Shown: piece after piece, positions 3,311-57,627 of the stretch
Layout of the letters: each line of letters starts with the position of its first letter
Position numbering within the stretch: position 1 is the first letter of the stretch
Notes under the pieces: model-generated
Database searches by the model: none
Seen by the model: only the letters and a program-made list of their open reading frames with translations
Told to the model about the DNA's origin: nothing
Made by a program: the position numbers and the translations under genes
IMG/VR virus record: IMGVR_UViG_3300017991_000002
Location: 141,368 to 205,367 of that record
Length of the DNA: 64,000 nucleotides
Source of the DNA: a virus
Strand: one strand, 5' to 3'

Positions 3311-3356
3311 GCTACCTCCCGTGTATGTAAAATGTGTCATTTACTTATCCTTTAAG

Positions 3357-3686
3357 CTAAGTAACAGCACTCCAATTCGTTATGTCCGAATTTGTATCTG
3401 TAAATCTCATCCTGACATAATATATTTCATAAGGAGTCATTTCATAACCATTATACTGTATTTCTTCGCTCCTGTCACCATCTGGTACATTATTTATTGG
3501 AACCCAATCGGAGTCCCACATCATTCTTCCAGAGAATCCAGAGTCAGTATTGACCTGTATCTGGCACTCAACCGCTTCATGACCTGCAGTATCATTAAAT
3601 TGAGCACTGAATGTTATCGGATTTGGTACTTCAAAACCTGTACCATTTCCGCTTACTTCAACTTCTGTCGGTGCAAGAGATGTCAT
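3357..3686 (-). CDS. Small Ig/fibronectin-III-like virion protein
   Basis: 109 residues, all beta in character. It starts MTSLAPTEVEVSGNG and contains FSAQFNDTAGHEAVECQIQV and YEIYYVRMRFTDTNSDIT. Alternating strands with a YYVR(M)R(F)TD pattern near the C-terminus are typical of fibronectin type III-like domains, which phages often use as accessory domains on tail or baseplate proteins. It sits 3 bases downstream of the tail protein I homologue and just before another baseplate gene. A decoration or carbohydrate-contact role is inference. Confidence 0.6.
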   Translation of the reverse strand: MTSLAPTEVEVSGNGTGFEVPNPITFSAQFNDTAGHEAVECQIQVNTDSGFSGRMMWDSDWVPINNVPDGDRSEEIQYNGYEMTPYEIYYVRMRFTDTNSDITNWSAVT

Positions 3687-3689
3687 TTT

Positions 3690-6053: not shown

Positions 6054-6065
6054 TATATATTTCCT

Positions 6066-7568
6066 TTATACTTCGCCCGTTACCGTAATAAGGACATTAC
6101 CGATGAGCGCTATTTCGGTATCTTCGATCGGCACATCAGATACGGTTTGTCCTGTTCCATAATCTATGCCATTTGCAGTCATAACAAGTGAATCCAAAGT
6201 ACTAACTTGAGACAAGTTTACCAGAGCGGCAACAAGCTGCTCGAATTCTATATCTTGACCAAAGACAAGCCCATCAACTGAACCCGTTAACCTTTCTTCC
6301 TCGGCCGGCGACTCAGCGACCCTAAAAAACTCCTGGATAGCTTCAGTGACTGATTGGATAACTTCATAGTCCTCATAATCCCGGTATTTTACACAATTAA
6401 CAGTTATATCTGTAACCACATACTCTGGATCCAGTATCTCCAGATCGGCCGTTACATACTTCTTTTGATTAACAAGATAATTGTAAACTGCTTCTTTTAG
6501 AGCCTGACCTGGGTATCCTTCATTGTCTGGAATAACAGCAATTCTTATTTCATAATAACTTATCTCGAAAGAATACAGAGGATAGTCGTTAATATCAAGG
6601 ACCTTACATTGCTTAATTCCAGGGTATCCCTCAACCAGGGCCCGTATATCGAGTCTTGTTATTGCCCTACTATTTGCCTGCACCTCTGCGGGTATTTGTT
6701 TTTTGGCGTGGTACAACGATTCTCTATAATTACCTCCAGCCAACTCAGATGGATTGGTAACCGATATATTTACTGTCTCTCCCGAGGAGTCGAATATCGT
6801 ATCAAGAATAGACGTGACTGTCCCTGCTCCTCTATTTCCATCAGGGCCATCGGTTAGGATGTATATTATTTCTACTGTCCCGTCCGGTTCTTTTCCTTCA
6901 AACCCGTCTCCAAAGAATACGGTAGTCGTATCATCAGGATTTAATTGTGTTGTGTAAATTTCCGACTCGCTGCTGTAATTGATGAAGTTATCAACATTCA
7001 CCCAATTCCTCCCATTTACTTTAACTACGATGGATCCTTCAGCAATTTCAGTATCTGATAAAACGTAAGGAGGAGGGTCGATACCTGTATTAAAAGTCAG
7101 AGAAGGATCAATTACCGATCCTTGCCATGCCTCTATATCAACAGATAACTGACCGGCCGGAATGATAGCATCCTCGACAGTCACCAGTGGGATAGGTGAT
7201 ACCGCCGGGGATGAACATCTCGTATACTTCGGGATGATAACATTGGCCGTTATCGTCCTGGGGATAGAAAACCTGAGCATTGTTCTTGCTGCTACCCTTG
7301 AATTGAATTTGTATCCGACTGACTCGGCAAAATAAATACCATGTTTTCTCTCTCGCATCGTCGGTAGATACACTTCATTCAGTCTCCTATCCAACATATA
7401 ATTCAACATAGCTCCGACGCCACAGAAAGTTTCCAGAAGGGCAATACCAATATCCGACTCATTAAAGTCTGTCCACCGATCAGTGATTAGGGGGATCTTG
7501 GCAATAAGAGCGTCTCTGAGCTCTTCATAGTCTGTATTTGTGTATGCAACCTTGGCCTTCAGAGCCAT
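6066..7568 (-). CDS. Baseplate J-like protein (T4 gp6 / P2 J family)
   Basis: 500 residues with a Shine-Dalgarno (AAAGGAGA) before ATG 7568. The N-terminus has the J-like pattern: ITDRWTDFNESDIGIALLET, then MLNYMLDRRLNEVYLPTMRE. The middle has STVFFGDGFEGKEPDGTVEI-like strands (TTVFFGDGFEGKEPDG) and GPDGNRGAGTVTSI, typical of baseplate J proteins. The C-terminus has the helical EAIQEFFR region and GQDIEFEQLVAALVN. The protein would form the inner ring of baseplate wedges. It sits between the gp25-like and protein I-like genes, as in P2. Confidence 0.9.
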   Translation of the reverse strand: MALKAKVAYTNTDYEELRDALIAKIPLITDRWTDFNESDIGIALLETFCGVGAMLNYMLDRRLNEVYLPTMRERKHGIYFAESVGYKFNSRVAARTMLRFSIPRTITANVIIPKYTRCSSPAVSPIPLVTVEDAIIPAGQLSVDIEAWQGSVIDPSLTFNTGIDPPPYVLSDTEIAEGSIVVKVNGRNWVNVDNFINYSSESEIYTTQLNPDDTTTVFFGDGFEGKEPDGTVEIIYILTDGPDGNRGAGTVTSILDTIFDSSGETVNISVTNPSELAGGNYRESLYHAKKQIPAEVQANSRAITRLDIRALVEGYPGIKQCKVLDINDYPLYSFEISYYEIRIAVIPDNEGYPGQALKEAVYNYLVNQKKYVTADLEILDPEYVVTDITVNCVKYRDYEDYEVIQSVTEAIQEFFRVAESPAEEERLTGSVDGLVFGQDIEFEQLVAALVNLSQVSTLDSLVMTANGIDYGTGQTVSDVPIEDTEIALIGNVLITVTGEV

Positions 7569-28279: not shown

Positions 28280-31020
28280 TTACGGTGAAGTAAACACGTT
28301 ACCGCTGCAGTAGAACTTGTCCCAAACGACTTTCTTGCCGTACTGAGTCCCCAACGCTTTACGAACGACGAAATCGTCGAGGGTAATGGTCGGAGTTTCA
28401 TACAGCGGGATATACGGTGCATAAATGTAACCGGTTTCCAGGAATGAAACACCCTTATACCCGACGAGGAAATCCGTCGCCGTCATATAAGGATCTTTGT
28501 AACAATCCCATTTCCCTTGAAGAGTCCCAATCTTCATGACACCCATACCGCCGGTAGCACCAGACGGAACAAAACCAGGCAGAGTTTCGATGATGTTACA
28601 AACCTCAACACCAGCGACAACCCAGTTGCCCGTTGCACGTCTGGTCTGCTGAAAGATCAGGTTAGAGGCTTCAACAAGGGTATCGAGGAATGCCTGTTTG
28701 TGCTCTGTCCAGGAAACACCCGTCGGGAGCTTCCGGTCAAAAGACACGGTACCTGCAGCAGCGATATTGGTCAAATCGCGGATTATTTCGCGGTCAATTT
28801 CAAATTTGCACTTTTGTTACTACCATCATTTGATGGCGGGCAGGTCATCTCTGCCTGCCTCTCTACGTCACCGTAGAGGTCTGACTATATCTTCACCCAC
28901 CGCTTCCTGAAGCGGGGAGGGGGCTGCCGTAGCCTCTGCAGTTTCCCACAGAGACGTAGTCGATGAACTAGAGAAAAGGAAATCTTCAGTCAAAACCAGA
29001 AAGTAAGCACTGTTTTTGGAGCACCAAGCTCGAGCGGCCTCAAACTTCTCCTCACAATAGCTCAAGAAACTTTCAGGTTTGATCTCAACCAGGAACTTTC
29101 GCCCGTCAACGAGAGTTACCAGGTAGTCCGGCACATAGTGCTGAAACGATCCATAAGGTATTACTACCTCTTCGTACTGAATATTTGCCACGATCAGGTC
29201 GGTATCGATCAATTCCAGGAACTTCAATTCATACGAAGACCTGTAATAAAATCTTCCCAATCTGCCGCTAAGGTAACCAGTTTTATACTGATTATTATTT
29301 CGCCTGCCCTCTGCAATCATCTTGGCCATACCCAACGAGACCTTCTTCCGATTTTCAGGATCCTTATACCTCTCCACCTGAGCCTCAGAAATCTTCTTTC
29401 TCCATTCCGGGGTTATGACCTTACCAAGAGCACCCTGACTCATACTTTCCCTAGCCTCTTCTGAGGTATCAGTTCCAAGACGATTTCTTGTCCGTCTTGC
29501 AGCATCAGCACATTTCGGATTGTCTTTATTGGCCTTGGATATACTATCTCGATGAGACTGACTCAATTTAACTCCTTTATGAGACAGGCTCATTTGCTTT
29601 TTAGCATATCTTGAGACTATGGCATGATCTTTCTTATATACGTCAAGATCGATCTCCGGATGTGCATGCCTCAAATGACTAAGCAAATTATGAGCTTTAT
29701 ACTCTTTGCAGATTTGGCAAGTTATTTTTTCCATCTTTTCTCCAGCTGCTGATTGTCTCACAGCTCGTGAGAGGTTCCAGCAATTAAGCAGCTTGTAACG
29801 CCCAGCATCTCTGCTGAGGGAGCCCAGTTTCGTTAAGCTCTTCCGCGAGGACCGCAACCAATTCTGCCTCTGCTTCAATCCCGTGAACATTCCGCAGGTT
29901 AGCAGCAGCTTCCATTGACCATCGGCTTCTCAGCTTACGGGTCCGTGCGATGACGGGCGAGCTGGTAAGCACCAAGTCAACCTCAGGCAGATTCGGGTTT
30001 CCTTCCATGTTGTAATCATACGTGGAAGTGACCAGGGTTGTATTATCAATAGTGTTACTAAAAGTCACACTGACTGAACCAGACGAGTAGTCAATGGTTC
30101 CTGTTCCATCACCGGTAAATCCCCCTGCTCCATCATCCGTAACGGTCAGATCAGAGGCAGCGGCAGTACTGTAACCGGTGACTGTAATCGTACCAGGACG
30201 GATTGGGATAAAAGACAGAGAGCCGGTATAAGGACCAGTAGTACCATTGGCCGTAGCAACCGTCTCAGACTCGACCTTCTCTGAGCTGTAGTAATCAGCC
30301 GCAGCAGTGTAGCCCTGAGTATCTTCAATTACCTGGCCTTTGCTGATGGCGCCTTTATTGGTACCATAAACAAACTGCAGATAGAAGACGATACTGGCAG
30401 GTCCCAGCATAGGCTGAACACTGACCAGATCAGTAGCGATCAGGTTCGGGAATATAGCTCGAATCAACGGGACTTAATTCTGCTATATTTGTTATTTACA
30501 GGGCTCTTTATCCCTGTGCTCCGATTTCTCGGAGGATCGGATCATATCATCTTCCTGGGTACTATCTTTCAGGAAGCCAGGCGCTCGTGCCTCTGTTACT
30601 GCTTTCGCTCGAGAGGTGATCTCTGAACCTTCTTCAGCCCTGGAGATATTCATCGTTACGTCTGAAGCTTGGCTGCTGATTGTCTTAGATGTAAATATGT
30701 CTGACATATGAAGATTTCCAGCAATTCACCTGGTTATTCGACAGCCATTACTGACTGAAGGCGCTCCCATTTAATCCATAAGTTTTACAGAGTGGCAACG
30801 CGAATTTTTCGAAGTTTGCTATTCCCGGAGAAGTCGTAGTCGTTGTTTCATACAGAGGATCTTTATTGGCGAAAAATCGATGCTGGCTTTCCAGCAAGAA
30901 AGCTGTCACCGTTCGCTTATAATCGTCCTCAATAGATTCGCAAAGAGGTGACCATTTTGGGGAATTAGCAAGGCTCTCCCCTTTCTGGGTCATCTCTTCA
31001 ACTAACATTTGCCGTTCCAT
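28280..31020 (-). CDS. Major capsid protein, T4 gp23-like, three exons split by two group I introns
   Basis: The exons are 31020-30798, 30472-29836 and 28808-28280. Their 1389 joined bases code for 462 residues. Exon 1 starts at ATG 31020 after TTAGGAGGAAAT and ends inside a codon (GCG T). Joining to TC CCG TTG gives FEKFAFPLIRAIFPNLIATD. Exon 2 ends GAG CT; joining to C AAA TTT gives AVLAEELKFEIDREIIRDL. Both junctions line up without gaps with T4 gp23 (NFGPALISMVRRAVPNLIA; LATEIMLEINREV), which fixes the splice sites. Further gp23 signatures are DLVSVQPMLGPASIVFYL, SMEAAANLRNVHGIEAEAEL, ATGNWVVAG and YMTATDFLVGYKGVSFLETG then YIYAPYIPLYE. A beta insert lies in exon 2 (TGPYTGSLSFIPIRPGTITV). 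A FLLE site near residue 44 could be cut by the prohead protease. Confidence 0.92.
28809..29835 (-). ncRNA. Group I intron 2 of the major capsid gene, endonuclease-bearing
   Basis: 1027 bases. P1 pairs exon GAGCU (29840-29836) with GGCUC (29824-29820), with the U-G pair at the splice site. P2 is CAGCA/UGCUG. Core elements: P AATTGCTGGAACC (29785-29773), P5 CUCAC/GUGAG, Q AATCAGCAGC (29754-29745), R CTGCAGAGGCTA (28941-28930), S AAGATATAGTC (28893-28883). P7 pairs GGCUA with UAGUC. P8 is CCGCUUC/GAAGCGG (28915-28900). P9 is a 7-bp stem with a GUGA loop (28878-28861). The last intron base is G 28809. The endonuclease gene is placed in the P6 loop. Confidence 0.9.
28868..29734 (-). CDS. Intron-encoded homing endonuclease (zinc finger, NUMOD3, PD-(D/E)XK-like)
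   Basis: 288 residues from ATG 29734, which has GGAG five bases upstream; the frame is open to 29890, but that part overlaps exon 2 and the 5' ribozyme core. Order: C2H2-like finger (CQICKEYKAHNLLSHLRHAH), two NUMOD3-like DNA-binding repeats (LSHKGVKLSQSHRDSISKA; TPEWRKKISEAQVERYKDPE), then a nuclease domain. The domain has YRSSYELKFLELID, HYVPDYLVTL and FLVEIKPES, giving the E...D...E-x-K set of PD-(D/E)XK folds. The last 25 codons run through R, P7, P8 and S, and the stop codon lies in the P9 loop, so the protein end is dictated by RNA structure. It would cut intronless capsid alleles to spread the intron. Confidence 0.85.
   Translation of the reverse strand: MEKITCQICKEYKAHNLLSHLRHAHPEIDLDVYKKDHAIVSRYAKKQMSLSHKGVKLSQSHRDSISKANKDNPKCADAARRTRNRLGTDTSEEARESMSQGALGKVITPEWRKKISEAQVERYKDPENRKKVSLGMAKMIAEGRRNNNQYKTGYLSGRLGRFYYRSSYELKFLELIDTDLIVANIQYEEVVIPYGSFQHYVPDYLVTLVDGRKFLVEIKPESFLSYCEEKFEAARAWCSKNSAYFLVLTEDFLFSSSSTTSLWETAEATAAPSPLQEAVGEDIVRPLR
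30473..30797 (-). ncRNA. Group I intron 1 of the major capsid gene, no endonuclease
   Basis: 325 bases. P1 pairs exon GCGU (30801-30798) with GCGC (30764-30761), U-G at the splice site, and extends into the intron (U-A, C-G, C-G, A-U with one mismatch). P10 pairs exon 2 UCCC (30472-30469) with the adjacent GGGA (30768-30765). Core: P AATTGCTGGAAA (30726-30715), Q AATCAGCAGCC (30681-30671), R GTTCAGAGATCA (30628-30617), S AAGATGATATGATCC (30553-30539). P7 pairs GAUCA with UGAUC exactly. Extra stems CCUCU/AGAGG and CUUCCUG/CAGGAAG lie between R and S. The last intron base is G 30473. A 71-codon frame inside it overlaps the core and is not considered a gene. Confidence 0.92.
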
Positions 31021-45761: not shown

Positions 45762-46286
45762 TTAATCTGACAATACGTATTCAACAAAAAGATTGAACTT
45801 ACCGGCAGTAAGATCCTGAACAGCGATCGTAGCGGTCAGTTCACGAGCCGCAGTTGTTTTCACCGCATTGGCAACGGTCCCGTCCTCAATACCCTCATGA
45901 AGACCGGCATCCCAAGGATTGGTTCCATCGTTAATTGCGATCGCAGCAACGATATCATCAGCACCTTCGGCATGAAGGGCAATGGTTGCTGTATCAGCGG
46001 CAGATTCACATGTGGTAAGCACATCGACATACGCCCGCATGATGATAGCATTGTCGGGAATTGTAACTCCCAATCCAATCGCCCCGATAGTACCACCAAG
46101 CTCAGCGAAGTCATACTGCGCTTTGACCGTAAATGGCATTTTGGTGTACAGGAACTGAGTTTTGTCCAGCAGCTCCTGAGCAATAATATCTACCTTATCC
46201 AAGGTAAGATCAGACCCATCATCCTGAGCCAGCTCACGGAGGGTCTCATCCCATTCATAGGCAGTATTTGCAGTTAATTCAGACAT
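45762..46286 (-). CDS. Fibre-associated structural protein with shared N-terminal cassette
   Basis: 174 residues. The N-terminus (NTAYEWDETLRELAQDDGSD, LTLDKVDIIAQELLDKTQF) matches the opening of the proteins at 46644-48320 and 56080-56523. The C-terminal domain (MPFTVKAQYDFAELGGTIGA, IGLGVTIPDNAIIMRAYVDV, ATIALHAEGADDIVAAIAIN) has the strand order of a small phage structural domain. The shared start is likely an attachment domain. Confidence 0.7.
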   Translation of the reverse strand: MSELTANTAYEWDETLRELAQDDGSDLTLDKVDIIAQELLDKTQFLYTKMPFTVKAQYDFAELGGTIGAIGLGVTIPDNAIIMRAYVDVLTTCESAADTATIALHAEGADDIVAAIAINDGTNPWDAGLHEGIEDGTVANAVKTTAARELTATIAVQDLTAGKFNLFVEYVLSD

Positions 46287-46643: not shown

Positions 46644-48320
46644 CTATGAAAGACTAATGGCCCCAGATTTTACAGTACCGTCAGAATACTTCACTTTAAA
46701 TTCCAATTCGTTGTTGGATTCATCCAACCATAGATTAACATTTCCCCAATTATTACCAGCATCATTCTTCAAACTTGCGTCGGCCTCGGCAGAATTCTTT
46801 GCGCCCAGGATGGTACCACCAACAGTATGCAATTGCGTCTTCGGGTCATTATGCCCAAGACCAAAACCACCACTGGCACTAACAAGAAACTGACCGGCCG
46901 CTGTCGATGACAGGCCACCACCTGCAACGTCCGAAAATACAAAACACCCGTCATGGGCAACGTTCGCAGCATAACCGGCGGCCACCGAGTAGGAACCCCC
47001 GACGGCATTACCAGCCCCACCGAGAATGGTTGAACAGGCAGACCCGGCTTGTATGTCATTGCTATACCCGCCGCTGACGGCATTGTAATAACCGGAGGAG
47101 ATGCTATTCGACATCCCACCACTGATCGCCGCCCCGAGACTCGAACCGATCACATTTGCGTACCCGCCCGAAATATTGGAGAACAAATCACTGTCAACAT
47201 CATTGTTATATCCACCGGAGACGGATGAGTAAACACTCCCTGTAATAGTATTGCCTATCCCACCACCAATCATAGATCCCTCGGATCCGGTAATTTCGTT
47301 CTCCCTTCCACCGCCAATAAAGCACATCTGTGCACCCGATCCGACAGATGCAACAATCTGGTTGTAGTAACCACCGCCGATAACAGACCACGATGCCATC
47401 CTAACGCCTGAACCGGAGATCTCATTATACGCCCCGCCACCAATAAAACAACGGTCTGAACTGCCACCAATCAGATTTTCCTCGCCACCCCCAATAAGTG
47501 ATCGTGTTGCCACATTTGATATCCGGTTCTGGTAGCCGCCGAGGATAGCCGAGTACGAACTGGTGGACCCAATGTTATTACCATACCCGCCGACGATAGC
47601 AGATCCATTCGAGACAAGAATCTCATTGTCTATACCTCCGCCGATGAAGCAGCCGCCTCCAGCATTGGTCCGATTATCAGACCCTCCCGCAATACAACAA
47701 AACGGAGCGGTTATCTGGCCGGAATTATAGTAACCTCCCAGGACTGCAGATGCCAAACCGCCTGTATTGTTGTGATATCCTCCCCCAACAAACGCATAGC
47801 GGCCTGTTATCTTGTTGCTGAAACCACCGCAGATGGCCGAGTAATGTGCTTCAACCGCTGGAAATGCATTCGGCCAAATAAGGTTGTATGCCCCGGCACC
47901 AATAAACGCGGATTCCGCAAATATCTGATTCTTATACCCGCCAACAATCGCAGAGTACTTGGAGTCGGTGGGGATAGTAGGGTGTAATACCGGGCTGATC
48001 TTGTTTGTTGACCCGCCACCAATAAATGACTGAGGGGCGAGTGCTTCATTGAGCTGTCCGGCTACAGCAGCACTGTACCCTGCATTCGCCTCATTATTAA
48101 CACCCGTCCGTATCGTTGACGAGTCTCCGCCTCCCCCTACAGTAAAGAGCATTTTGTCCCCTGTCTCCACAGCTTTGTTGTACACTGAAACCGCTATGTT
48201 CAAAAGCTCTTCTGTTGCGTGATCCACTAAATCAAGAATCACGTCACTCCCGTCATCAGGAGCAAGCTTCCTGACGTAATTTTTAAACGTCGGATTAGTT
48301 TCCGCAGTAATTACCGCCAT
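46644..48320 (-). CDS. YadA-head-like beta-roll fibre/adhesin
   Basis: 558 residues with AAAGGAGATATTTGAC upstream. The N-terminal cassette NPTFKNYVRKLAPDDGSDVI, LDLVDHATEELLN is shared with 56080-56523. About 20 repeats of the kind SAIVGGYGNNI / CFIGGGAYNEI / SVIGGGYYNQI span residues about 85-450, the YadA-head (left-handed parallel beta-roll) signature. The C-terminal part has GQFLVSASGGFGLGHNDPKT and LWLDESNNELEFKVKYSDGT. Probably a trimeric receptor-binding fibre. Confidence 0.8.
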   Translation of the reverse strand: MAVITAETNPTFKNYVRKLAPDDGSDVILDLVDHATEELLNIAVSVYNKAVETGDKMLFTVGGGGDSSTIRTGVNNEANAGYSAAVAGQLNEALAPQSFIGGGSTNKISPVLHPTIPTDSKYSAIVGGYKNQIFAESAFIGAGAYNLIWPNAFPAVEAHYSAICGGFSNKITGRYAFVGGGYHNNTGGLASAVLGGYYNSGQITAPFCCIAGGSDNRTNAGGGCFIGGGIDNEILVSNGSAIVGGYGNNIGSTSSYSAILGGYQNRISNVATRSLIGGGEENLIGGSSDRCFIGGGAYNEISGSGVRMASWSVIGGGYYNQIVASVGSGAQMCFIGGGRENEITGSEGSMIGGGIGNTITGSVYSSVSGGYNNDVDSDLFSNISGGYANVIGSSLGAAISGGMSNSISSGYYNAVSGGYSNDIQAGSACSTILGGAGNAVGGSYSVAAGYAANVAHDGCFVFSDVAGGGLSSTAAGQFLVSASGGFGLGHNDPKTQLHTVGGTILGAKNSAEADASLKNDAGNNWGNVNLWLDESNNELEFKVKYSDGTVKSGAISLS

Positions 48321-48334
48321 GTCAAATATCTCCT

Positions 48335-48901
48335 TTACGGGGAAGCAACCCCGCTTCCTTTAATTATCTGTATAATTGCATAAGCGCCGGAAATTAAGGC
48401 ACTAATTCCAGCCACTATTGCTGGCCATATCCCGTACTTCCATTTCAGGACAAATCTGTGCGTTTCTTTTACCTGAGGGGCCATAATTGTAACTTCCTTA
48501 GATATTTGGCCCACGGCATTGTGAGTATCCTGAGACTGCTTCGAAACTGATGACATCTCACCCTTCAACCGCTCATGATCCAACCCGGCATTTTCCAAAC
48601 GTATATCTATTTTATTAATGAGGTTTATTGTCTCCCCCTGAATCGCCGTAACTTTATTCAATGGCTCGGCAAGGCCATTAAACCGTTGAATGATCGTATC
48701 AATTTTCACTCCCCATGATCGAGGGAAATACATCATAGGGATTGCATCATCATCAGTCCGCATAATCGACTCTTTCATAAAGGATAAATCCCTTGCTATG
48801 TCATTAAAGTCGCGCCCTAGATCAGAAAGCACCTTATTGATAGAGACAACGGCAGTCTTCACTTCTATGCTTGCATTTACCAGTTCCTGTATTTCATTCA
48901 T
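48335..48901 (-). CDS. Coiled-coil protein with C-terminal membrane helix (holin- or anchor-like)
   Basis: About 188 residues from ATG 48901; an upstream TTG at 48931 is in frame but overlaps the previous gene. Most of the protein is a long coiled coil (NKVTAIQGETINLINKIDIR, EMSSVSKQSQDTHNAVGQIS). It ends in a membrane helix GIWPAIVAGISALISGAYAI plus a short tail. This resembles XhlA-type and hemolysin-like phage membrane proteins, but a role in lysis or as a membrane-anchored sensor cannot be told apart. Confidence 0.6.
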   Translation of the reverse strand: MNEIQELVNASIEVKTAVVSINKVLSDLGRDFNDIARDLSFMKESIMRTDDDAIPMMYFPRSWGVKIDTIIQRFNGLAEPLNKVTAIQGETINLINKIDIRLENAGLDHERLKGEMSSVSKQSQDTHNAVGQISKEVTIMAPQVKETHRFVLKWKYGIWPAIVAGISALISGAYAIIQIIKGSGVASP

Positions 48902-48912
48902 CTCCAAAACAA

Positions 48913-49371
48913 CTAACCTTCCGTTAGGCAAACCCCCAAAGCCGCTTCGAGGGAATTCGCATTGAGCATTTCATCCAGATAATGAGCTGGAGGAATTACT
49001 ATAAGGATGAACTCTGAGCCTTCTGTCCTCGGGTTCAATTTAAAGCCATTACCTGGCTTGATCGTAAGTGTATCCGTGGCCTTTAGAGTGGACTCATGGC
49101 CCTCAACCTCGAGAATACTTTGACCTTCTATCTGCACCACACAGACACTGGATTCATTGTGGCGACATATAGAAGCCCTCGCCTCCGTCGTAACCGCAAT
49201 CCCTCTTAGAACATTGCATTTATCGGACAGAGAATGTTTGAATATCTGCCAGCTGCCCCATTTAGCGATCCATCCTCCAACTCTGAAGGCACCGCTAATT
49301 TCACTGATCTTTCTCATATTATTGGCAACGTTGCCGTTAATACTCGAGAGTATTTCATCGAAGTTGGCCAC
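48913..49371 (-). CDS. Cupin-like small protein
   Basis: 152 residues from GTG 49371 with GGAGGTGAGGAG upstream. A cupin-like double-stranded beta-helix pattern follows a short N-terminal helix: ASICRHNESSVCVVQIEGQS, ILEVEGHESTLKATDTLTIK, PGNGFKLNP, FILIVIPPAH. No full metal-binding motif is evident (only one H in the first motif). It sits between the receiver and coiled-coil/membrane genes. A ligand-sensing role is only a guess. Confidence 0.5.
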   Translation of the reverse strand: MANFDEILSSINGNVANNMRKISEISGAFRVGGWIAKWGSWQIFKHSLSDKCNVLRGIAVTTEARASICRHNESSVCVVQIEGQSILEVEGHESTLKATDTLTIKPGNGFKLNPRTEGSEFILIVIPPAHYLDEMLNANSLEAALGVCLTEG

Positions 49372-49384
49372 CTCTCCTCACCTC

Positions 49385-49771
49385 CTAAAGCCGCTTATCA
49401 AGAATCTCTCGAATGACCTTTACGAGTTCTGATACTTTGAACGGTTTTTGTATGAAGAAATCAATATTCCTTTTCGCCGCCTCTATAATTGCCTTTTCTG
49501 AAGGAAAAGCAGACAGAATCATCACATCGTACTCTGCTGTATCCCTATCATACCCGAGATCTTCCAACATATCAAGGCCAGTCATTTGTGGCATCATAAG
49601 ATCAAGAATTACCAGATCCGGACAATCCTTACGTATACCCACAATAGCCGAAGCGGCGTCTGGAAAAGTCTTTACTTCAGGATGATATTGATTAAGACCC
49701 TTATCCAATTTTATCGTTGTCTCTACCGTATTCCTAATCGCTTTGTCATCATCGACAACATATATCTTCAT
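49385..49771 (-). CDS. CheY-like single-domain response regulator
   Basis: 128 residues with AAAGGAGACAACGGCTG upstream. Receiver-domain key residues are all present: acidic pocket D7-D9 (VVDDDKAIR), phosphoacceptor D57 (LVILDLMMPQMTG), S87 (ILSAF), and K109 (QKPF). There is no output domain, so it would act like CheY or Spo0F by protein contact. It lies between the sulfotransferase and cupin-like genes inside a phage fibre island. No histidine kinase is seen here, so it would use the host's. Confidence 0.88.
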   Translation of the reverse strand: MKIYVVDDDKAIRNTVETTIKLDKGLNQYHPEVKTFPDAASAIVGIRKDCPDLVILDLMMPQMTGLDMLEDLGYDRDTAEYDVMILSAFPSEKAIIEAAKRNIDFFIQKPFKVSELVKVIREILDKRL

Positions 49772-49787
49772 CAGCCGTTGTCTCCTT

Positions 49788-50579
49788 TTACCAAGGCTCT
49801 ACTGCAGTAATAACTTTCGCGGCATCCCCTAACACATCCCTCCATTGGGAAGGCTGTGGTTCCACTTTTGGTCTGATCTCATGCAGGTCCCTGAATCCGT
49901 GAACGAAGTCGTTCTCATGGGTAACCTGCTCTACATACTCAAAATTATGATCAAAGGAATCCTCCCCTAAGAACTGATAAATACTCTTCATTGTTCCTTC
50001 GGGATCTCTGGTCAATTCCTCATAACGAACAAAGTGCATTCGATCAGAGAACCCCCTCACGAGGGCATCCTGAATACGATTGAAGGCAAGACCGACTGGT
50101 TGTGATGGGTCAGACCATATCTCAATGCGCCCCTTAATCGTTTGCCACTTATAGTAGAGCTGTTTCTCGGTTTCGGTTTGGAATATGTGTGCATTTCGTC
50201 TGTATAGTTTTTCAAAGGAGGCAAGAACATCTTTAAGATCCCTTACCGGAACTAGGACTTTAGCCTTTCTACCCAACAATGCTTCCGCCAACTCCAGATG
50301 ACCCAACCATCCTCTGGACTTATCAAACACAACTGGTCGATCACCATTCCCGTGAAAACTGAAAAGAATCGATCGCATGACCCGCATCTTGGCCTCATCG
50401 TCTGGGGAGGCCCTAAACTCAATGAAGTTCTCCCACATATTACGCACGGCAAAGATTACTTCAAGTATTCCAGACGTTGCCGTGGTAAAGAATCTCGGAT
50501 TTTGCGCCAGAATGTTGCACAGCAAAGTACTGCCTGCTCTCGGCAAGCCGCTCACAAAATGAATAATTTTCTCTTCCAC
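49788..50579 (-). CDS. Sulfotransferase (PAPS-dependent) family protein
   Basis: 263 residues. The 5'-phosphosulfate-binding loop is HFVSGLPRAGSTLLCNILAQ (residues 7-26), and the 3'-phosphate site is KVLVPVRDLKDVLASFEKLY with R113 and S121. VVFDKSRGWLG (K87) and a late FVRYEELTRDPEGTMKSIYQ match the family. It would move sulfate from PAPS to a carbohydrate or protein. Between adhesin-type genes it may modify a surface glycan or virion protein; the substrate is unknown. Confidence 0.85.
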   Translation of the reverse strand: MEEKIIHFVSGLPRAGSTLLCNILAQNPRFFTTATSGILEVIFAVRNMWENFIEFRASPDDEAKMRVMRSILFSFHGNGDRPVVFDKSRGWLGHLELAEALLGRKAKVLVPVRDLKDVLASFEKLYRRNAHIFQTETEKQLYYKWQTIKGRIEIWSDPSQPVGLAFNRIQDALVRGFSDRMHFVRYEELTRDPEGTMKSIYQFLGEDSFDHNFEYVEQVTHENDFVHGFRDLHEIRPKVEPQPSQWRDVLGDAAKVITAVEPW

Positions 50580-50594
50580 AGAATTATCCTTTCT

Positions 50595-52175
50595 CTATGG
50601 TTTGTCAGATACGTGGGTTATAGTAACTTTAGATAGCCAAAATACCCTATCGACGCTGTTCCCGTCAACCTGAACCCGCAATTTCTCCAATCCTGCTGAC
50701 CCGGCAACCGTTAAACCGCACGTATACCCTGATGCAGCGTAGATAGCTGGGACAATTACAGGAAACAGTGAACTATTGTTAATTTTGAAGCTTGTTCCGT
50801 CATTAAGAAGGACGCAGTCCAGAGAGAAGGCAAAAGCCAAATCATCCAACGAAGGTCCTGGTCCGTAGTAATGGAACCTGCCAACGGTGTAAACCTGAAT
50901 AAGGTATGCCCCTTCTTGCTCAACCGGTATTTCCTCTGAACCTGTACCGGTTCCGGATAATCCTTCTATCCCTTCCCAATCCAAATACATAGGAACGGCC
51001 GATGTATCGGATGAATCGGTCACCCGCCGAAGCATATATATTGACGACTGGGCATCGAATGTGTCATCAAATCGTCCGGAGGAGAGGGAGAACTGTCCAC
51101 GACTCCGTGCCAAAATATTATCTCCATGAACCAATGCCATGGTGACACCGTCGTCTATCTCATTATCCTTTCCGTTTATGACTACGGAGTAATCACCTTT
51201 GACTGTATTATCCTTTCCGGAGATGATGGCCGCATAGCTAGTACCACCCGACGGCAAGATAGAACACCCATAACCGGACCCAATAAATCCATAAGAAGAC
51301 CTTGTAATGTTGTTATCCCGACCTCCAACAATGACACATGACCGAGGGGGCTCCAAGAGGCTACCACCAATGATGTTATCTCTTCCGCCGAGGATACTGT
51401 TATAAGGGGCAAGAATTTGTGGGCTCGGGTTGATGTAATTATTCATCCCGCCACCTATGAAGCAGTAAGGACTTTGCTTCGTGGTGTTGTAATACCCTCC
51501 AGATATACCGCTGTAATTTCCTTCTACACTGTTTCCCTTTCCTCCAGAGGTAAAGGAAAAATCACTATTGGCATCGTTACTGTATCCTCCTCCTACAAAG
51601 GACTCATTTCCACCTGCCTGATTGAGTCTTCCTCCTACCACCGATCCATAATTCCCGCTGGCCTCATTACTATAGCCGCCAAGAACGGACCCGTAGGGGG
51701 CTGTTGCACTATTGTTTCTTCCTCCCCCTACAACAGAAAAGTTCCCAGAGGCTGAGCATTGAAGTCCTCCACATATAACCGATTGATTACCGATAATAGT
51801 ATTGAATAAACCCCCTCCAATAAAGGAGTAATCCGCATTGACAGCATTAGTGTATCCACCTACCACTGAGGAGTAATCTCCGGAAACTGTACAGCTCTTC
51901 CCGGTAAGTATCCCAGAGTAGTCACCGTTCACTATATGCCCGCTTACTTTCCTCTTTACAGGTCTTGTCCCGGTATCCCCCGGTTCAAAAAATACGCCGG
52001 TTGCATGGATGGTCACATCTCCCGTTCCAGGATCGGTCCCTGATGACACGAGATTTATATCATCCCCGGCTACCAGCTTGGCGACGACGGCATAACCGGA
52101 AGAAGACGTATTGAGATTGTTTCTCATGATTGTATCATCGTCGACTTCGTAACCTGTAACTTTTGTGACTCCCAT
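50595..52175 (-). CDS. YadA-head-like beta-roll fibre/adhesin (second copy)
   Basis: 526 residues. An N-terminal anchor (VTKVTGYEVDDDTIMRNNLN) is followed by about 16 repeats such as SSVVGGYTNAV / SFIGGGLFNTI / CFIGGGMNNYI over residues about 75-370, the same signature as 46644-48320. The C-terminal domain (GAYLIQVYTVGRFHYYGPGP, SAGLEKLRVQVDGNSVDRVF) resembles a C1q/TNF-like or other fibre tip beta-sandwich. Probably receptor binding. Confidence 0.78.
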   Translation of the reverse strand: MGVTKVTGYEVDDDTIMRNNLNTSSSGYAVVAKLVAGDDINLVSSGTDPGTGDVTIHATGVFFEPGDTGTRPVKRKVSGHIVNGDYSGILTGKSCTVSGDYSSVVGGYTNAVNADYSFIGGGLFNTIIGNQSVICGGLQCSASGNFSVVGGGRNNSATAPYGSVLGGYSNEASGNYGSVVGGRLNQAGGNESFVGGGYSNDANSDFSFTSGGKGNSVEGNYSGISGGYYNTTKQSPYCFIGGGMNNYINPSPQILAPYNSILGGRDNIIGGSLLEPPRSCVIVGGRDNNITRSSYGFIGSGYGCSILPSGGTSYAAIISGKDNTVKGDYSVVINGKDNEIDDGVTMALVHGDNILARSRGQFSLSSGRFDDTFDAQSSIYMLRRVTDSSDTSAVPMYLDWEGIEGLSGTGTGSEEIPVEQEGAYLIQVYTVGRFHYYGPGPSLDDLAFAFSLDCVLLNDGTSFKINNSSLFPVIVPAIYAASGYTCGLTVAGSAGLEKLRVQVDGNSVDRVFWLSKVTITHVSDKP

Positions 52176-52204: not shown

Positions 52205-53230
52205 CTACCAATTTGTTATTGAACTTGTTTGTGCCCCTGAGGAGAAATCGAGGAGAAGCTTACCAAATCCAACATATTTCATATAAACGTCCGAATCTGA
52301 TGCATGCACTTTAATATTGCATCTTTGGTCCGTCAGATAATTAATCCCTGAAATATCTGGCCTGGCAATAAATTTTGTTACTGCATCGGAGGCACCGTAA
52401 TATGTGTTTGCCGACCCTACTGCATCCAATTCATACATAATGGCCGATGTATAGTGGAAATTGAACAAGGTAGTTTCACTTGCGTGCCCGTCGGCAATGA
52501 TACCAACTGTGGCCAAATTAATCTTCCAATTCTGCCTTGTATCAAATGCCTTATTTCCACGGGCCACCCAATCCGTCTTACTCTCATAACCCCCTGATCC
52601 AGTGTATGCAGCAGTATTAACACAGAAACTCTCGAGCAGATACCAGTCATCTTCATTAAGGTTGGAATCATACCCATTCGGGTTCCATGTGCTATCCGGG
52701 TAAGAGGCATCACTATTATTGCCAAGGATGTGCTCTATTTTCCACGCATTAACAAAACAGAGCTTGTCGGTAGAATGGACATAATCAACCTTGTCATTAA
52801 ATGCCTGTCGTCCATTCGTGGTCGTCGAACCATAGTCATAACCGGCCTCGTCCATAAAGATACCATGGATCCCGAGGTTAGTCTCCCACTCATCCACCTT
52901 TGATTTAAAATTAGCGAACGATTGGTATACCGTGACATAGCCGAATATTTTTACATCGGGATTTAATGCCATAATCCTGGGGACGATGACGCTCGTATTT
53001 GCCCAATCGCCGTGGCTGGTTGACTGGATACCGTCACCAAAAACAAGCAGGTCATACTTGGACATCTCCTGGGCAACTTTCTCATTATTCCACCCGTGCT
53101 GGGAACTATTGAAAGAATTAAGCCAGCCGTAATAAATTAACAGGTTTTTTGGTTGAATTACGCCAGCGCAAACAGTGGTTGCGAAAAGAAAAGAAACGAT
53201 CATGGTTAAAACAAAAACAGTCTTTCTCAT
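52205..53230 (-). CDS. Secreted TIM-barrel glycosidase-like protein (spherulin-4/GH114-like)
   Basis: 341 residues with AAAGGAGAACCAACA upstream. A clear Sec signal peptide MRKTVFVLTMIVSFLFATTV then CA-G (cut after about residue 22) leads a TIM-barrel-like domain: LLIYYGWLNSFNSSQHGWNN, YDLLVFGDGIQ, NPDVKIFGYVTVYQSFANFK, LGIHGIFMDEAGYDYGSTTT, LCFVNAW. The 'hGIFMDEAGYDYG' motif and strand order resemble spherulin-4/GH114/GH135-type glycosidases, with D and E in it as candidate catalytic residues. A secreted depolymerase is unusual for a phage fibre region. Confidence 0.7.
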   Translation of the reverse strand: MRKTVFVLTMIVSFLFATTVCAGVIQPKNLLIYYGWLNSFNSSQHGWNNEKVAQEMSKYDLLVFGDGIQSTSHGDWANTSVIVPRIMALNPDVKIFGYVTVYQSFANFKSKVDEWETNLGIHGIFMDEAGYDYGSTTTNGRQAFNDKVDYVHSTDKLCFVNAWKIEHILGNNSDASYPDSTWNPNGYDSNLNEDDWYLLESFCVNTAAYTGSGGYESKTDWVARGNKAFDTRQNWKINLATVGIIADGHASETTLFNFHYTSAIMYELDAVGSANTYYGASDAVTKFIARPDISGINYLTDQRCNIKVHASDSDVYMKYVGFGKLLLDFSSGAQTSSITNW

Positions 53231-53248
53231 TGTTGGTTCTCCTTTGTT

Positions 53249-56068
53249 TTATGATCCTGCTATGGTTCCTGTAAAAATCCACCAGTTTGTCCCATCTGAA
53301 ACTACCTGGTAGAAATTTGCCCCTCCCCCATTATCGTCAATATATGCGGTAAAGCCAGCTCCGACCGTCGCCGGGGTTCCAAATACAGTGTCCAATTCAG
53401 CGTCGGTTGGCGGGTTTGAAACATCGTCGGTGTGGACGGTCTGAGATATTCCTTCCCCCGAGAGGGACCACGAATCTTCATCTTCTTTATACGTGAGTGT
53501 CCCATCATTCGTCTCGCCATTAAACGTAATCTGGTAGTCGAGGCCGGTAAGGCCAGCACCGAGCGTTAAGACATTCGCAATACTGTCCTTGACCCAAAAA
53601 TGGGGAGGATTTGTCCCCTCCTTAACCCAAAACTCTGCAGCGTCGTCGGGACCGTTGAATTGAAATGCATCGCTGCCAAATGTTAATGAGGCAGTGTTCG
53701 CTGTATTCATAAACATTCCCGCCGTATCATCAAGGTAGATATTACTATTGGTTAGGTCAACATTACCGGATATTGTTATATCATCGGACAGTGTAAAATG
53801 GTCCGTTGACCAGGATAATGTCTCACCGGAAGATAACTGTAAATCATTCCCCGCTATAACCATGTCTCCCGAGACTTCGAGCGTCCCACTCCCGTAGAGG
53901 CCCATCAGATAACCGCCGCCCGAACTCTCTGTCCAATACGTATGGTACGACAATGCCCCAACTGCCGGAATAGCGCTCAAGTGAAATACAGTCCCAGCCG
54001 TCTCGTTCCCCTTGATAGTCGCCGTATTATCGGAAACAAAATCTATCATCGTCCCGCCGACTTCAAACGTCGTCGAATTGAACTCAAATTTCTGGCCGCC
54101 GCCAATCATGACACCGATCGTGTCTGCCGCAACATCATCAAATCCGGTATCCTGATCACTGTAGAAGGCAAACCCACTCGAGTTTACTCCTCCGGATACG
54201 TTCAAATCACACGACATATCAAATGAGTCTTCATCTTCCTGCCAGGTGATGACGCCGTCGTTTGTCTCACCGTCAAAAGTAAGGGTAAAATCCCGATCAG
54301 CTTCCCCATTGCCTATAATCATATCATCAGTGAAGGCAAACGCTGACCCATTCCACTGAAACGTTTCTGAGCCAGACAACTTACCGTCCATGGTGATAGG
54401 GGTACTTGTATTCATACTGATCCCTGACCCTATCAAAAGTCCTCCAGTCTGAATGTCGACGTTCCCGGTAAATTGAGTCATCGGAGCAGTCAACCTAAGC
54501 GCATTATCAGCTCCTGTAAGATGACCTACCTTGAACGTTCCAGTTCCTCCATCGAGGATCAATTCACCCCCGTCGGCATCCAAGATAAAGTCTCCCGAGG
54601 TGTACACATCATCATTGAACTCGAACCGGTCATCAGTAACGTGGTCGTATAGTAATGTCTTCGTGTAAGCAGCCCCGTCATAAAAATAGATAGTCCCTTG
54701 TTCAAGGAAGACGTCACCGCCTCCCATGTTAAGGTCGCCGTCAACAAACATGGAGCTGGCTTCAGCATCCCCCATTGAGACTTCGCCGTCGAAATACCCG
54801 GCCCAGGCCTTTCCACTTCCAGATGCCTTGGCATAAACACCATAGGCATTTGTATCAGCATTGGCCTCGAAGTATCCCCCGTAGGCCTCATCAACAGTAC
54901 CGCCACCCGCTTCAACCTTCGAATACATCCCGTACGCATTCTTCAGGGAAAATGTTGACGGCTGGATCGTACTGAGGATGCCGTAAACGTCATCATCATT
55001 AGCGGAAATAGTAAACGTCGAACGAATACCCATAGGGTCACGTGCGGGGGTGGTAGTGTTGTCAATGACGGCATCAATGCCGACGTAATAAGTTGCATTG
55101 AGCGTCTTTGATACTTTATGCGACGCATTGAATTCGACATGGTCGTTATTGAAATACCCTTTAATTAATGGGACAGAAGAATTCGTCGGCTCAATATAGA
55201 GTAGATCTGAGCCAGACTCATTCTCACCAGCCTGTGAGCCGAGAAAGATGTTCCGATCTCCGTCATTATTTCTCCCGGCGCGGTCGCCTACGAAGACATT
55301 CCCCTGCCCTCGATCAAGGTTACCACCCGCACGGGAGCCAAAAACGGAGTTGTTAAATGCGGTCGTCATATTATCCCCGGCAGCAGCCCCAAAAATAGAA
55401 TTGTCGCTTCCCTCGCTCGCCGTTCCACCTGCGCCCGCACCGTTGTAGGTATTATAGTTCCCATCGGCATTTTGGCCACAGCGATAGCCAGTGAATGTAT
55501 TCCTCGATCCTTTATTTCCCGTCCCTGCATCCTCTCCAACACCGGTGCTCTCCGTACCGATGATCGCCAGCATCTGATCGTCTTCTATGTTGTATGTATA
55601 ATCATCGCTGGATAGATTCATGTCACCATTCAGCGTAAAGGAGGAGGTCTCAATCGAGTTGGCCACAATATCACCGAACTCCCAATCAAGGGCCATGTTG
55701 TTTGGAAAGTGTTGCCAGGCAAGGGTGATGTTCTGGATCGTTGTCACGTTTCTAATGGCAAGGAGATCCCCTTTTTTAAGCACGTATGTTGTATTCCCAG
55801 ACCAATTCGACCCGGTCCACAGTATTGTCTGCCACGTTTGTGAGTCGAGGGAGAAGGCGGATACGAGAACCCCGGTATCTTTTGTGGCCAAGAGGTCGCC
55901 AACATAGACCAGCGTCCGCTCCTCACCAACCCACCATCCGGTATTGTAAGTATCAGCACCCGTCTCCAGTTGCGTCGGTTTTCTGACCGGCACCTGTTTG
56001 ATTATCGTTGCCTCGACAGTAGTAAAGGCAAAAAGAATAATTGCCAATAATATCAAAAGTTTCCTCAT
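53249..56068 (-). CDS. Long fibre/adhesin with Sec signal peptide and YadA-like repeats
   Basis: About 939 residues from ATG 56068, chosen for the AGGAG eight bases upstream; the frame is open to 56095. A signal peptide MRKLLILLAIILFAFTTVEA opens it. Five repeats of the form NTFTGYRCGQN / NSIFGAAAGDN / NVFVGDRAGRN / NIFLGSQAGEN follow near residues 195-290. A fibre body rich in 'GDMNLSS', 'MGDAEASSMFVDGDLNMGGG' follows. The C-terminal cassette TVHTDDVSNPPTDAELDTVF and FYQVVSDGTNWWIFTGT is shared with 56533-57627. Secreted location is unusual for a tail fibre. Confidence 0.75.
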   Translation of the reverse strand: MRKLLILLAIILFAFTTVEATIIKQVPVRKPTQLETGADTYNTGWWVGEERTLVYVGDLLATKDTGVLVSAFSLDSQTWQTILWTGSNWSGNTTYVLKKGDLLAIRNVTTIQNITLAWQHFPNNMALDWEFGDIVANSIETSSFTLNGDMNLSSDDYTYNIEDDQMLAIIGTESTGVGEDAGTGNKGSRNTFTGYRCGQNADGNYNTYNGAGAGGTASEGSDNSIFGAAAGDNMTTAFNNSVFGSRAGGNLDRGQGNVFVGDRAGRNNDGDRNIFLGSQAGENESGSDLLYIEPTNSSVPLIKGYFNNDHVEFNASHKVSKTLNATYYVGIDAVIDNTTTPARDPMGIRSTFTISANDDDVYGILSTIQPSTFSLKNAYGMYSKVEAGGGTVDEAYGGYFEANADTNAYGVYAKASGSGKAWAGYFDGEVSMGDAEASSMFVDGDLNMGGGDVFLEQGTIYFYDGAAYTKTLLYDHVTDDRFEFNDDVYTSGDFILDADGGELILDGGTGTFKVGHLTGADNALRLTAPMTQFTGNVDIQTGGLLIGSGISMNTSTPITMDGKLSGSETFQWNGSAFAFTDDMIIGNGEADRDFTLTFDGETNDGVITWQEDEDSFDMSCDLNVSGGVNSSGFAFYSDQDTGFDDVAADTIGVMIGGGQKFEFNSTTFEVGGTMIDFVSDNTATIKGNETAGTVFHLSAIPAVGALSYHTYWTESSGGGYLMGLYGSGTLEVSGDMVIAGNDLQLSSGETLSWSTDHFTLSDDITISGNVDLTNSNIYLDDTAGMFMNTANTASLTFGSDAFQFNGPDDAAEFWVKEGTNPPHFWVKDSIANVLTLGAGLTGLDYQITFNGETNDGTLTYKEDEDSWSLSGEGISQTVHTDDVSNPPTDAELDTVFGTPATVGAGFTAYIDDNGGGANFYQVVSDGTNWWIFTGTIAGS

Positions 56069-56079
56069 CGCTTTCACTC

Positions 56080-56523
56080 CTATAATATCCACCAATTGCT
56101 TCCATCACTTTGAACGGTAACCCCGTCATATTGAGAGGCAAAAGAGAATGATGCCTGACCATCAATCGACTCTCCTCCTTGTGCATTCAGGGTGACTGCA
56201 TTCGTTATATCAATTGCTTTAACATTAAAAGTCTGCCCTTCATTACCCACCGCCGTGGGGAGGTTGGCATCGACCGTATTTACCGATCCATCACAGAGAA
56301 TGGTACCGTCATCGGTCGTTATATCATATGTCAGCAGGCTAACAGTCTTAATACCACCCTGGGATGACTGACCTGCCCTATTCCACGCAGCGATTGTATT
56401 GTTAAGTAATTCAGCAGAGACAGCATCCACCTTATCGAGGATGACTTCCCCGCCGTCATCTTGAGCAAGTTTCCTGACATGAGTTTGGAATGTCGGGCTT
56501 GTCTGCCCCTCGATAATAGCCAT
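56080..56523 (-). CDS. Short fibre protein with shared N-terminal and C-terminal cassettes
   Basis: 147 residues with TAGGAGTAGCAT upstream. N-terminus SPTFQTHVRKLAQDDGGEVI, LDKVDAVSAELLN is nearly the same as in 46644-48320. The C-terminus (GGESIDGQASFSFASQYDGV then TVQSDGSNWWIL) is the short knob common in phage fibres. It is a minimal anchor-plus-tip protein. Confidence 0.72.
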   Translation of the reverse strand: MAIIEGQTSPTFQTHVRKLAQDDGGEVILDKVDAVSAELLNNTIAAWNRAGQSSQGGIKTVSLLTYDITTDDGTILCDGSVNTVDANLPTAVGNEGQTFNVKAIDITNAVTLNAQGGESIDGQASFSFASQYDGVTVQSDGSNWWIL

Positions 56524-56532
56524 ATGCTACTC

Positions 56533-57627
56533 CTATGTTGCTTTGGTTGCAGTAAAAATCCACCAGTTCGTCCCGTCTGAAACAACCTGATAGAAATTGT
56601 TCCCGTCTCCATTGTCATTAATATATGCAGTAAACCCAGCCCCGACAGTACCGGGCGCACCGAAGATCGCATCCAGCTCGGCATCGGTTGGGGGATTCGA
56701 GACATTGTCCGTGTGGACGGTCAACTTGAAGCCCTCATTCTGCGTATCAACCACAAAAATGTCTCCGGTGTCACCGCTTTTTCGAATAAGGAGGGCTTCC
56801 GTCGACGTGAAGTCATTGATCATTTTTCCGCCGTCGCCATAGAATGAGGCTTCCCAGGTAGCAATTCGTCCCGAGCGTGTCCCATCAGAAGCATAGAGGG
56901 CTTCCCAATTGGAGCACATAGATGCCGTCCTTGCTGCACCATTGAAGCTGGCCGATGCTTCTGTCCCATCGCCATAGGTTGACGGGAGTGCAACATAAAT
57001 GCCGTAAACATCTGGCCCGTTCTCAAGGCTGAGTCCAGTGTAGTCAACCTTGACTCCCATCAGCGTATCATCAGCACCGGGCGTTTGAATATTGGTCACG
57101 AGTATCTGCTCTCCATCAACGGTCGTGTTCGTAATGGGGATGATCAAACTGCCGTTAGGGTCAATTCTGAGTATCGGATCGCCATTGTTCTTCTGGCACT
57201 GCAGGAGGTCGTTCGTCTGGGTAGTCCACGCCTGGACGATGTGCTGGACAATGTCGGCACCAATTTCCAGGTAGTACGTCTTCGTCTCAAAGGCTTCTTT
57301 CTTACTTGTAATGTTTTCAATATTTGTTCCGGAGCAATTCGGGCATTCGGACGGAAACTCCTTACCACGAACAACAAAGCGAGTATTGTCGTCGTAGCAC
57401 CACAATTGGTATTGATTCAGGGGTGCCCCGTCATGATCCGCCACTACCGTATCGAGTGCATCTTTTTCACCACTACTCAAATCAGATTCGAAATAAACAT
57501 CCAGCGAATCGGTCTCGTCTTCATACTTGCCACCCTGATACGCCGTCGTGATAGCTGATTCATTTTCGATCTCCGCAGCGAGTGTGGTGAGGTTGACTGT
57601 GCTCTTGGTGTAATTATACGTCGCCAT
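56533..57627 (-). CDS. Tail fibre-like protein with shared C-terminal cassette
   Basis: 364 residues; TAATG couples it to the upstream gene. Its N-terminus (YNYTKSTVNLTTLAAEIENE, LSSGEKDALDTVVADHDGAP) is common in phage fibres. A C-x2-C pair (CPNC near residue 95) is present. The C-terminus TVHTDNVSNPPTDAELDAIF, GAGFTAYINDNGDG, FYQVVSDGTNWWIFTAT matches the 53249-56068 protein, indicating module exchange or duplication. Confidence 0.7.
   Translation of the reverse strand: MATYNYTKSTVNLTTLAAEIENESAITTAYQGGKYEDETDSLDVYFESDLSSGEKDALDTVVADHDGAPLNQYQLWCYDDNTRFVVRGKEFPSECPNCSGTNIENITSKKEAFETKTYYLEIGADIVQHIVQAWTTQTNDLLQCQKNNGDPILRIDPNGSLIIPITNTTVDGEQILVTNIQTPGADDTLMGVKVDYTGLSLENGPDVYGIYVALPSTYGDGTEASASFNGAARTASMCSNWEALYASDGTRSGRIATWEASFYGDGGKMINDFTSTEALLIRKSGDTGDIFVVDTQNEGFKLTVHTDNVSNPPTDAELDAIFGAPGTVGAGFTAYINDNGDGNNFYQVVSDGTNWWIFTATKAT

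Follow-up and report, generated by a model that had tools for sequence, protein, structure and literature searches.

Why would a phage encode, among its tail-fibre genes, a fibre and a glycosidase-like protein that both begin with a signal peptide for export by the Sec pathway? Tail fibres and fibre-borne depolymerases are usually regarded as parts of the phage particle that are assembled in the cytoplasm. The two genes in question are neighbours in a run of tail-fibre genes (about 45.7-58.9 kb) of the virus record IMGVR_UViG_3300017991_000002 (IMG/VR; 205,367 bp). The run lies in the final 64 kb of that record (positions 141,368 to 205,367), a stretch which we call the window and whose numbering is used unless the contig or another locus is named. 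The window contains a gp23-type capsid gene along with genes for a T4-like tail and baseplate, and it is read from the minus strand almost throughout. The original prediction had offered two explanations for the signal peptides, namely export of the proteins from the infected cell or acquisition of the genes from a host, and export of both proteins is the one that appears quite probable.

Two adjacent genes with predicted signal peptides

The glycosidase-like gene (52205-53230, 341 residues, ATG start) and the fibre gene, which runs from an ATG at 56068 to a stop codon at 53249 (939 residues), are both on the minus strand, in the same direction and 18 nt apart. Each ATG is preceded, 8 nt upstream, by an AGGAG ribosome-binding site (53239..53243 and 56077..56081, respectively, minus strand), and an alternative longer start of the fibre, a TTG at 56095, has no comparable ribosome-site context. 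The predicted Sec signal peptides comprise residues 1-22 of the glycosidase (MRKTVFVLTMIVSFLFATTVCA, followed by GVIQP; 53165..53230, minus) and residues 1-20 of the fibre (MRKLLILLAIILFAFTTVEA, followed by TIIKQ; 56009..56068, minus). They were called by an explicit n-h-c rule of our own making, which considers a basic n-region, a hydrophobic h-region, small residues at -3/-1 and a true start codon, and which recovered the signal peptides of Escherichia coli OmpA, PhoA, MalE and DsbA, used as controls, with scores of 24-45. In both proteins the n-region, the h-region and the cleavage motif occur in the correct order, with VEA/VCA at -3 to -1; the enzyme scores 46.3 and the fibre 52.7, the latter under a version of the rule that permits a charge at position -2.

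Since shuffled N-termini seldom pass the rule (37 of 6460, only one of which scores at least 46), it is very unlikely that two adjacent strong hits arose by chance. Across the 205-kb contig, 11 of 323 open reading frames (ORFs) pass when any start codon is allowed, most of them short, overlapping or without a ribosome site. Only three look genuine, in having a good start site and encoding a long protein: the enzyme, the fibre and a protein of 1039 residues; none of the remaining genes of the fibre run passes. In an AlphaFold model of the enzyme, residues 1-23 are disordered (predicted local distance difference test, pLDDT, < 50) and the remainder is folded. Thus the coordinates, the AGGAG-ATG starts, the scores and the shuffling control confirm what had been proposed for the two adjacent genes, i.e. 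that both begin with n-h-c signal peptides.

Relatives of the enzyme are viral and lack signal peptides

In viral contigs we observed 28 loci that encode relatives of the enzyme (about 47-60% identity), among which L002/L003, L004/L005, L006/L008 and L009-L011 are near-duplicates. None of the 28 has a signal peptide, and every match begins at residue 23-27 of the enzyme, immediately past the predicted cleavage site. In 17 of these relatives the enzyme domain is fused in frame behind a fibre-like N-terminal part, usually of the form VTDPxTG...NRRELFND...IHGKxGWH, and the other 11 are stand-alone proteins that start at or near the enzyme domain. Among the fusions, that of L021 has a repetitive, coiled-coil-like N-terminal part and a frame broken inside the enzyme domain, and that of L006 carries a C-terminal Gp53-like tail-fibre domain above the Pfam cut-off and also matches PHROG tail-fibre families. 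No relatives were found in GenBank phages, and none in 84,980 bacterial and archaeal genomes scanned with exact short patterns. One 411-kb phage contig contains the enzyme domain twice (L007 and L014): one copy stands alone and has no signal peptide, and the other is joined to a fibre-like protein.

The enzyme as a TIM barrel

By sequence, the enzyme matches nothing in the PDB at E <= 1, and Pfam PF12138 (Spherulin4) reaches it with 21.1 bits, under the gathering cut-off of 30.2, a weak match that is also seen in 12 of 14 aligned relatives (best E-value 1.2e-6). The mature protein (52205..53164, minus) was modelled by AlphaFold, using 14 sequences, as a TIM barrel followed by a small C-terminal beta domain (mean pLDDT 81.5, predicted template modelling score 0.83). 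Foldseek returned 9nhf_A (2e-9) and 5tcb (2e-6) with template modelling scores of about 0.5 and identity of about 10%, the nearest solved structures being fucanases of glycoside hydrolase family (GH) 168 and the PelA hydrolase (GH166). Among the structural neighbours of a model of the L020 fusion are phage proteins annotated as Spherulation-specific family 4.

Three acidic residues are invariant in the 14 aligned sequences, D127 and E128 (in FMDEAGYD) and E200 (in LLES), and these would suit a two-acid mechanism like that of GH168, in which D206 and E264 of FunA are essential (PMC10778895). On this model, the enzyme would be a glycosidase with a TIM barrel whose fold resembles those of Spherulin4/GH135, GH166 and the endo-fucanases of GH168, with which it would share conserved acidic residues after the barrel strands, although its place under the Pfam cut-off, the absence of a PDB match by sequence and the structural identity of only about 10% set it apart from all three. 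The term "glycosidase-like", which the gene had been given at the outset, is therefore upheld at the level of the fold. We rejected an endolysin reading of the protein, because no peptidoglycan-hydrolase family was recovered (Pfam gave only the weak Spherulin4 match and NCBIfam nothing) and its folds are those of polysaccharide hydrolases.

The fibre and the surrounding fibre repertoire

Directly behind the signal peptide of the fibre is a domain (residues 21-160; 55589..56008, minus) for which no relatives were found. It is followed by beta-roll repeats of the GSxAGxN type (about residues 175-285; 55214..55546, minus), as in cyanophage proteins, and the protein ends in a module of 66 residues (872-937; 53258..53455, minus) that is 80% identical to the end of the neighbouring gene 56533-57627. 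The match to the beta-roll repeats of cyanophage proteins covers residues 218-319; one of these proteins is annotated as a virion structural protein of Prochlorococcus phage Syn1, and they start without signal peptides. These shared repeats and the C-terminal module bear out the description of the protein as a fibre. In viral contigs, where exact 8-residue matches were required, no relatives were obtained for the whole fibre, for residues 21-160 or for the C-terminal module, and the whole fibre had none in bacterial genomes (exact short patterns) or in the PDB. The S74 chaperone domain (PF13884) had no match anywhere in the contig.

The neighbour at 56533..57627 (minus) is a fibre without a signal peptide, and its N-terminus is homologous to those of the glycosidase-carrying fibres of L006, L020 and L036 (E 3e-4 to 5e-10). 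Since it shares its end with the signal-peptide fibre and its beginning with fibres that carry the glycosidase, the two signal-peptide proteins and this neighbour appear to have been reshuffled from a common set of fibre parts. The signal-peptide fibre has neither this N-terminus nor the N-terminal module (QTSPTFQTHVRKLAQDDG) of the short fibre-locus protein at 56080..56523 (minus, no signal peptide), which is found also in genes 45762-46286 and 46644-48320. Both the enzyme gene and the fibre gene have a codon usage that is ordinary for the genome. Because the relatives of the enzyme are viral and often fused to fibres, because the fibre shares a module with its neighbour and because the codon usage is native, both proteins are best read as virus-fibre modules that gained signal peptides, rather than as whole genes recently derived from a host. 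The signal peptides themselves are the sole parts that could be of cellular origin.

Other exported-looking proteins

The third genuine-looking signal-peptide protein of the genome, of 1039 residues, is encoded on the plus strand at contig 118964-122083 (L028:1964-5083). Its signal peptide precedes DUF5060 and a cellulase-like domain, and at the C-terminus there is a GCGC/hydrophobic/RR tail, which we take to resemble a surface-sorting signal. NCBIfam gave no match, no relatives were found in the scanned viral contigs or in GenBank phages, and a comparison with plasmids returned only partial matches to the DUF5060 region, in Rhizobium.

We also looked for recurrence at the other enzyme loci, applying the same n-h-c rule and requiring a ribosome site. 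Two other enzyme-carrying phages, L018 and L012, each have a pair of predicted signal-peptide genes in the fibre region. In L018 the two genes are adjacent (1744-2982, with the signal peptide MRFIFAFLVLFTAGQSWA followed by T, and 2999-3844). In L012 one gene (5677-6051) was found by the rule and its neighbour (6051-6596) was spotted by eye and scored afterwards. A 412-residue protein of the L018 pair is a tail fibre, as indicated by PHROG 4492 (2.7e-42) and by similarity to annotated tail fibres, and none of its annotated homologues that were inspected (HMO-2011, ACP17, MEP402 and others) has a signal peptide. The other three proteins had no family match, and when close relatives were sought for the signal-peptide proteins of L018 and L012, only the proteins themselves came up. 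The enzyme of each of these phages is encoded by a gene of its own and has no signal peptide. As the sample is small and was chosen by presence of the enzyme, these cases show recurrence and not frequency.

Probable export from the infected cell and its possible role

Of the two explanations first offered, export is the better supported, considering the N-termini of the Sec/signal peptidase I type, the ribosome sites, the absence of a virion-adaptor N-terminus on the fibre and the presence of a third exported-looking glycosidase. For a fuller mechanism, in which a T4-like phage has recycled tail-fibre modules as Sec-exported proteins that act on surface or matrix polysaccharide, we would put the chances at about even. 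The parts of it that are read from the sequence are the signal peptides, the start sites, the viral-fibre ancestry of the enzyme, the shared fibre module, the TIM-barrel fold and the conserved acidic residues. The signal peptides would direct both proteins through the inner membrane and then be cleaved off, presumably before lysis. Both genes are placed in the tail-fibre run, presumably a late one. The mature proteins would arrive in the periplasm and, once exported by the host or set free by breaking cells, at the surface and in the surroundings, where the glycosidase may cut a host surface or matrix polysaccharide, probably of the kind that is cut by its fibre-borne relatives, and the fibre may attach to a receptor or glycan there. 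The infected cell, debris and the matrix would thereby have their receptors stripped or masked, which would keep progeny from being trapped and shut out rival phages. This would explain why a binder and a cutter adjoin each other among the fibre genes. What we infer is that the proteins are exported, cleaved and made late, as well as the activity and substrate of the enzyme and the benefit to the phage.

Several observations weigh against such a role. The signal peptides are predictions of a home-made rule; in a host with two membranes, Sec export by itself stops at the periplasm, and the fibre has no recognisable outer-membrane anchor or autotransporter-like domain; finally, both genes are found among fibre genes, as would be expected of virion parts as well. 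One may consider that the N-termini do not serve release at all, either because the proteins are virion parts in which the hydrophobic helix is an anchor for membrane or assembly, or because the signal peptides are recent and functionless. This would agree with the position of both genes inside the tail-fibre run and with the occurrence of relatives of both modules in virion-type proteins that have no signal peptides, yet it seems unlikely, given that charge, core and cleavage motif are rightly ordered up to positions -3 to -1, that the adjacent fibres of the phage carry a different, common soluble N-terminal module, and that similar arrangements are seen in two other phages. Somewhat less unlikely, although still improbable, is export for another purpose, whereby auxiliary glycosidases degrade environmental or matrix polysaccharide and so feed or free the host, with the fibre as a carbohydrate-binding partner that has no receptor role. 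The genome does encode the 1039-residue DUF5060/cellulase-type protein with its signal peptide and sorting-signal-like tail, and the nearest solved folds of the enzyme are polysaccharide hydrolases (GH168 and PelA GH166). However, the enzyme family is virus-only in our searches, often built into fibres, and located here in the fibre run; action on the host surface therefore fits better than nutrition.

Two further explanations appear very improbable. The glycosidase might be a Sec-exported lysis enzyme, comparable to Lys44 of phage fOg44, since signal-peptide endolysins are known (PMC6116005), but its closest folds are those of polysaccharide hydrolases, many of its relatives form part of fibres, another gene of this phage encodes a candidate cell-wall enzyme of the TIGR02594 type (contig 46852-47340), and the signal peptide of the fibre would be left unexplained. 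Alternatively, both genes might have been taken recently from host genes for a secreted adhesin and a secreted glycosidase. Bacterial signal-peptide fibres of phage-like build do exist, namely the MAT proteins of Bdellovibrio (PMC10769870), and the fibre resembles them in having a domain of similar length behind its signal peptide. Nevertheless, neither protein yielded relatives in the 84,980 genomes (exact short patterns only), many viral relatives of the enzyme exist, the codon usage is native, and the C-terminal module is common to the neighbouring phage fibre. Acquisition from host genes, the second possibility raised by the original prediction, is thus unsupported for the domains of these proteins.

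If one returns to export as the preferred reading, a tentative and rather doubtful generalisation is that a class of tail-fibre proteins exported by Sec exists in some tailed phages from the environment, often encoded by two neighbouring genes of the fibre locus. What were once fibres of the virion, or enzymes on them, would then have become soluble decoys or receptor-destroying factors that the infected cell releases before lysis. A functional parallel can be seen in the receptor-destroying enzymes that free the progeny of other viruses, and a parallel in build in the bacterial MAT fibres.

Relation to known systems

Our searches of the open-access literature turned up no account of tail fibres with Sec signal peptides. 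Virion-bound depolymerases on tail fibres and tailspikes are similar in that a polysaccharide-hydrolase-like domain lies in the fibre locus, and 17 relatives of the present domain are indeed fused to fibre-like proteins, whereas the domain here stands alone behind a Sec signal peptide, without a virion adaptor. The closest published layout that we found is that of the MAT fibres of Bdellovibrio bacteriovorus, in which a beta-rich domain of about 130 residues comes after a signal peptide (PMC10769870), which compares with the signal peptide and the region of similar length (residues 21-160) of the phage fibre. MAT fibres are bacterial and used in predation, whereas the fibre here is phage-encoded and was compared with them by layout. 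One MAT subgroup has a C-terminal S74 chaperone, which was not found in our contig, and there is also a non-S74 subgroup.

GH32 of Bacillus phages SP10 and phiNIT1 is likewise phage-encoded and thought to act on extracellular matrix polysaccharide, but it is reported to be without a signal peptide (PMC4595243), in contrast to the enzyme studied here, which has a classical predicted signal peptide and belongs to a fibre-associated family. Lys44 of phage fOg44 is a Sec-exported phage enzyme, as ours is predicted to be, yet it cuts peptidoglycan for lysis (PMC6116005), and the present enzyme has a different, polysaccharide-hydrolase-like fold. Phage depolymerases and fibres are well known, and what is distinctive is an enzyme family that recurs on fibres elsewhere and has a signal peptide only here. 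If the export reading is true, the infected cell would supply soluble proteins that bind receptors and cut polysaccharide, which could be a way to exclude rivals, to free progeny from capsule or matrix and to affect uninfected neighbours. It would also mean that not all fibre-like phage genes should be annotated as virion parts, and it indicates candidates for secreted matrix-degrading enzymes.

Other features of the contig

The TIGR02594-family protein (contig 46852-47340, minus; L024:7852-8340) scores above the cut-off and also resembles a PHROG baseplate hub/tail lysozyme. In the fibre run, a fibre without a signal peptide at 50595..52175 (minus) was found by family search and sequence comparison to be related to that of 46644-48320, both consisting mostly of GGGxxN beta-roll repeats, and it matches Pfam LbR_Ice_bind weakly (2e-5, under the cut-off). 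Between these two beta-roll fibre genes (48335-50579) are cell-like genes nested in the run, encoding a sulfotransferase (Pfam 9e-19, PHROG 27463), a stand-alone response-regulator receiver domain, a weakly cupin-like protein and a coiled-coil protein with a hydrophobic segment at its C-terminus. The gp23-like capsid gene (28280-30798) is split. It probably holds two introns, since an endonuclease ORF (28868-29890), with a TnsA-like N domain above the Pfam cut-off, lies between two Gp23 pieces, and close to the 5' end of the upstream one Rfam detects a group I intron (30518-30798).

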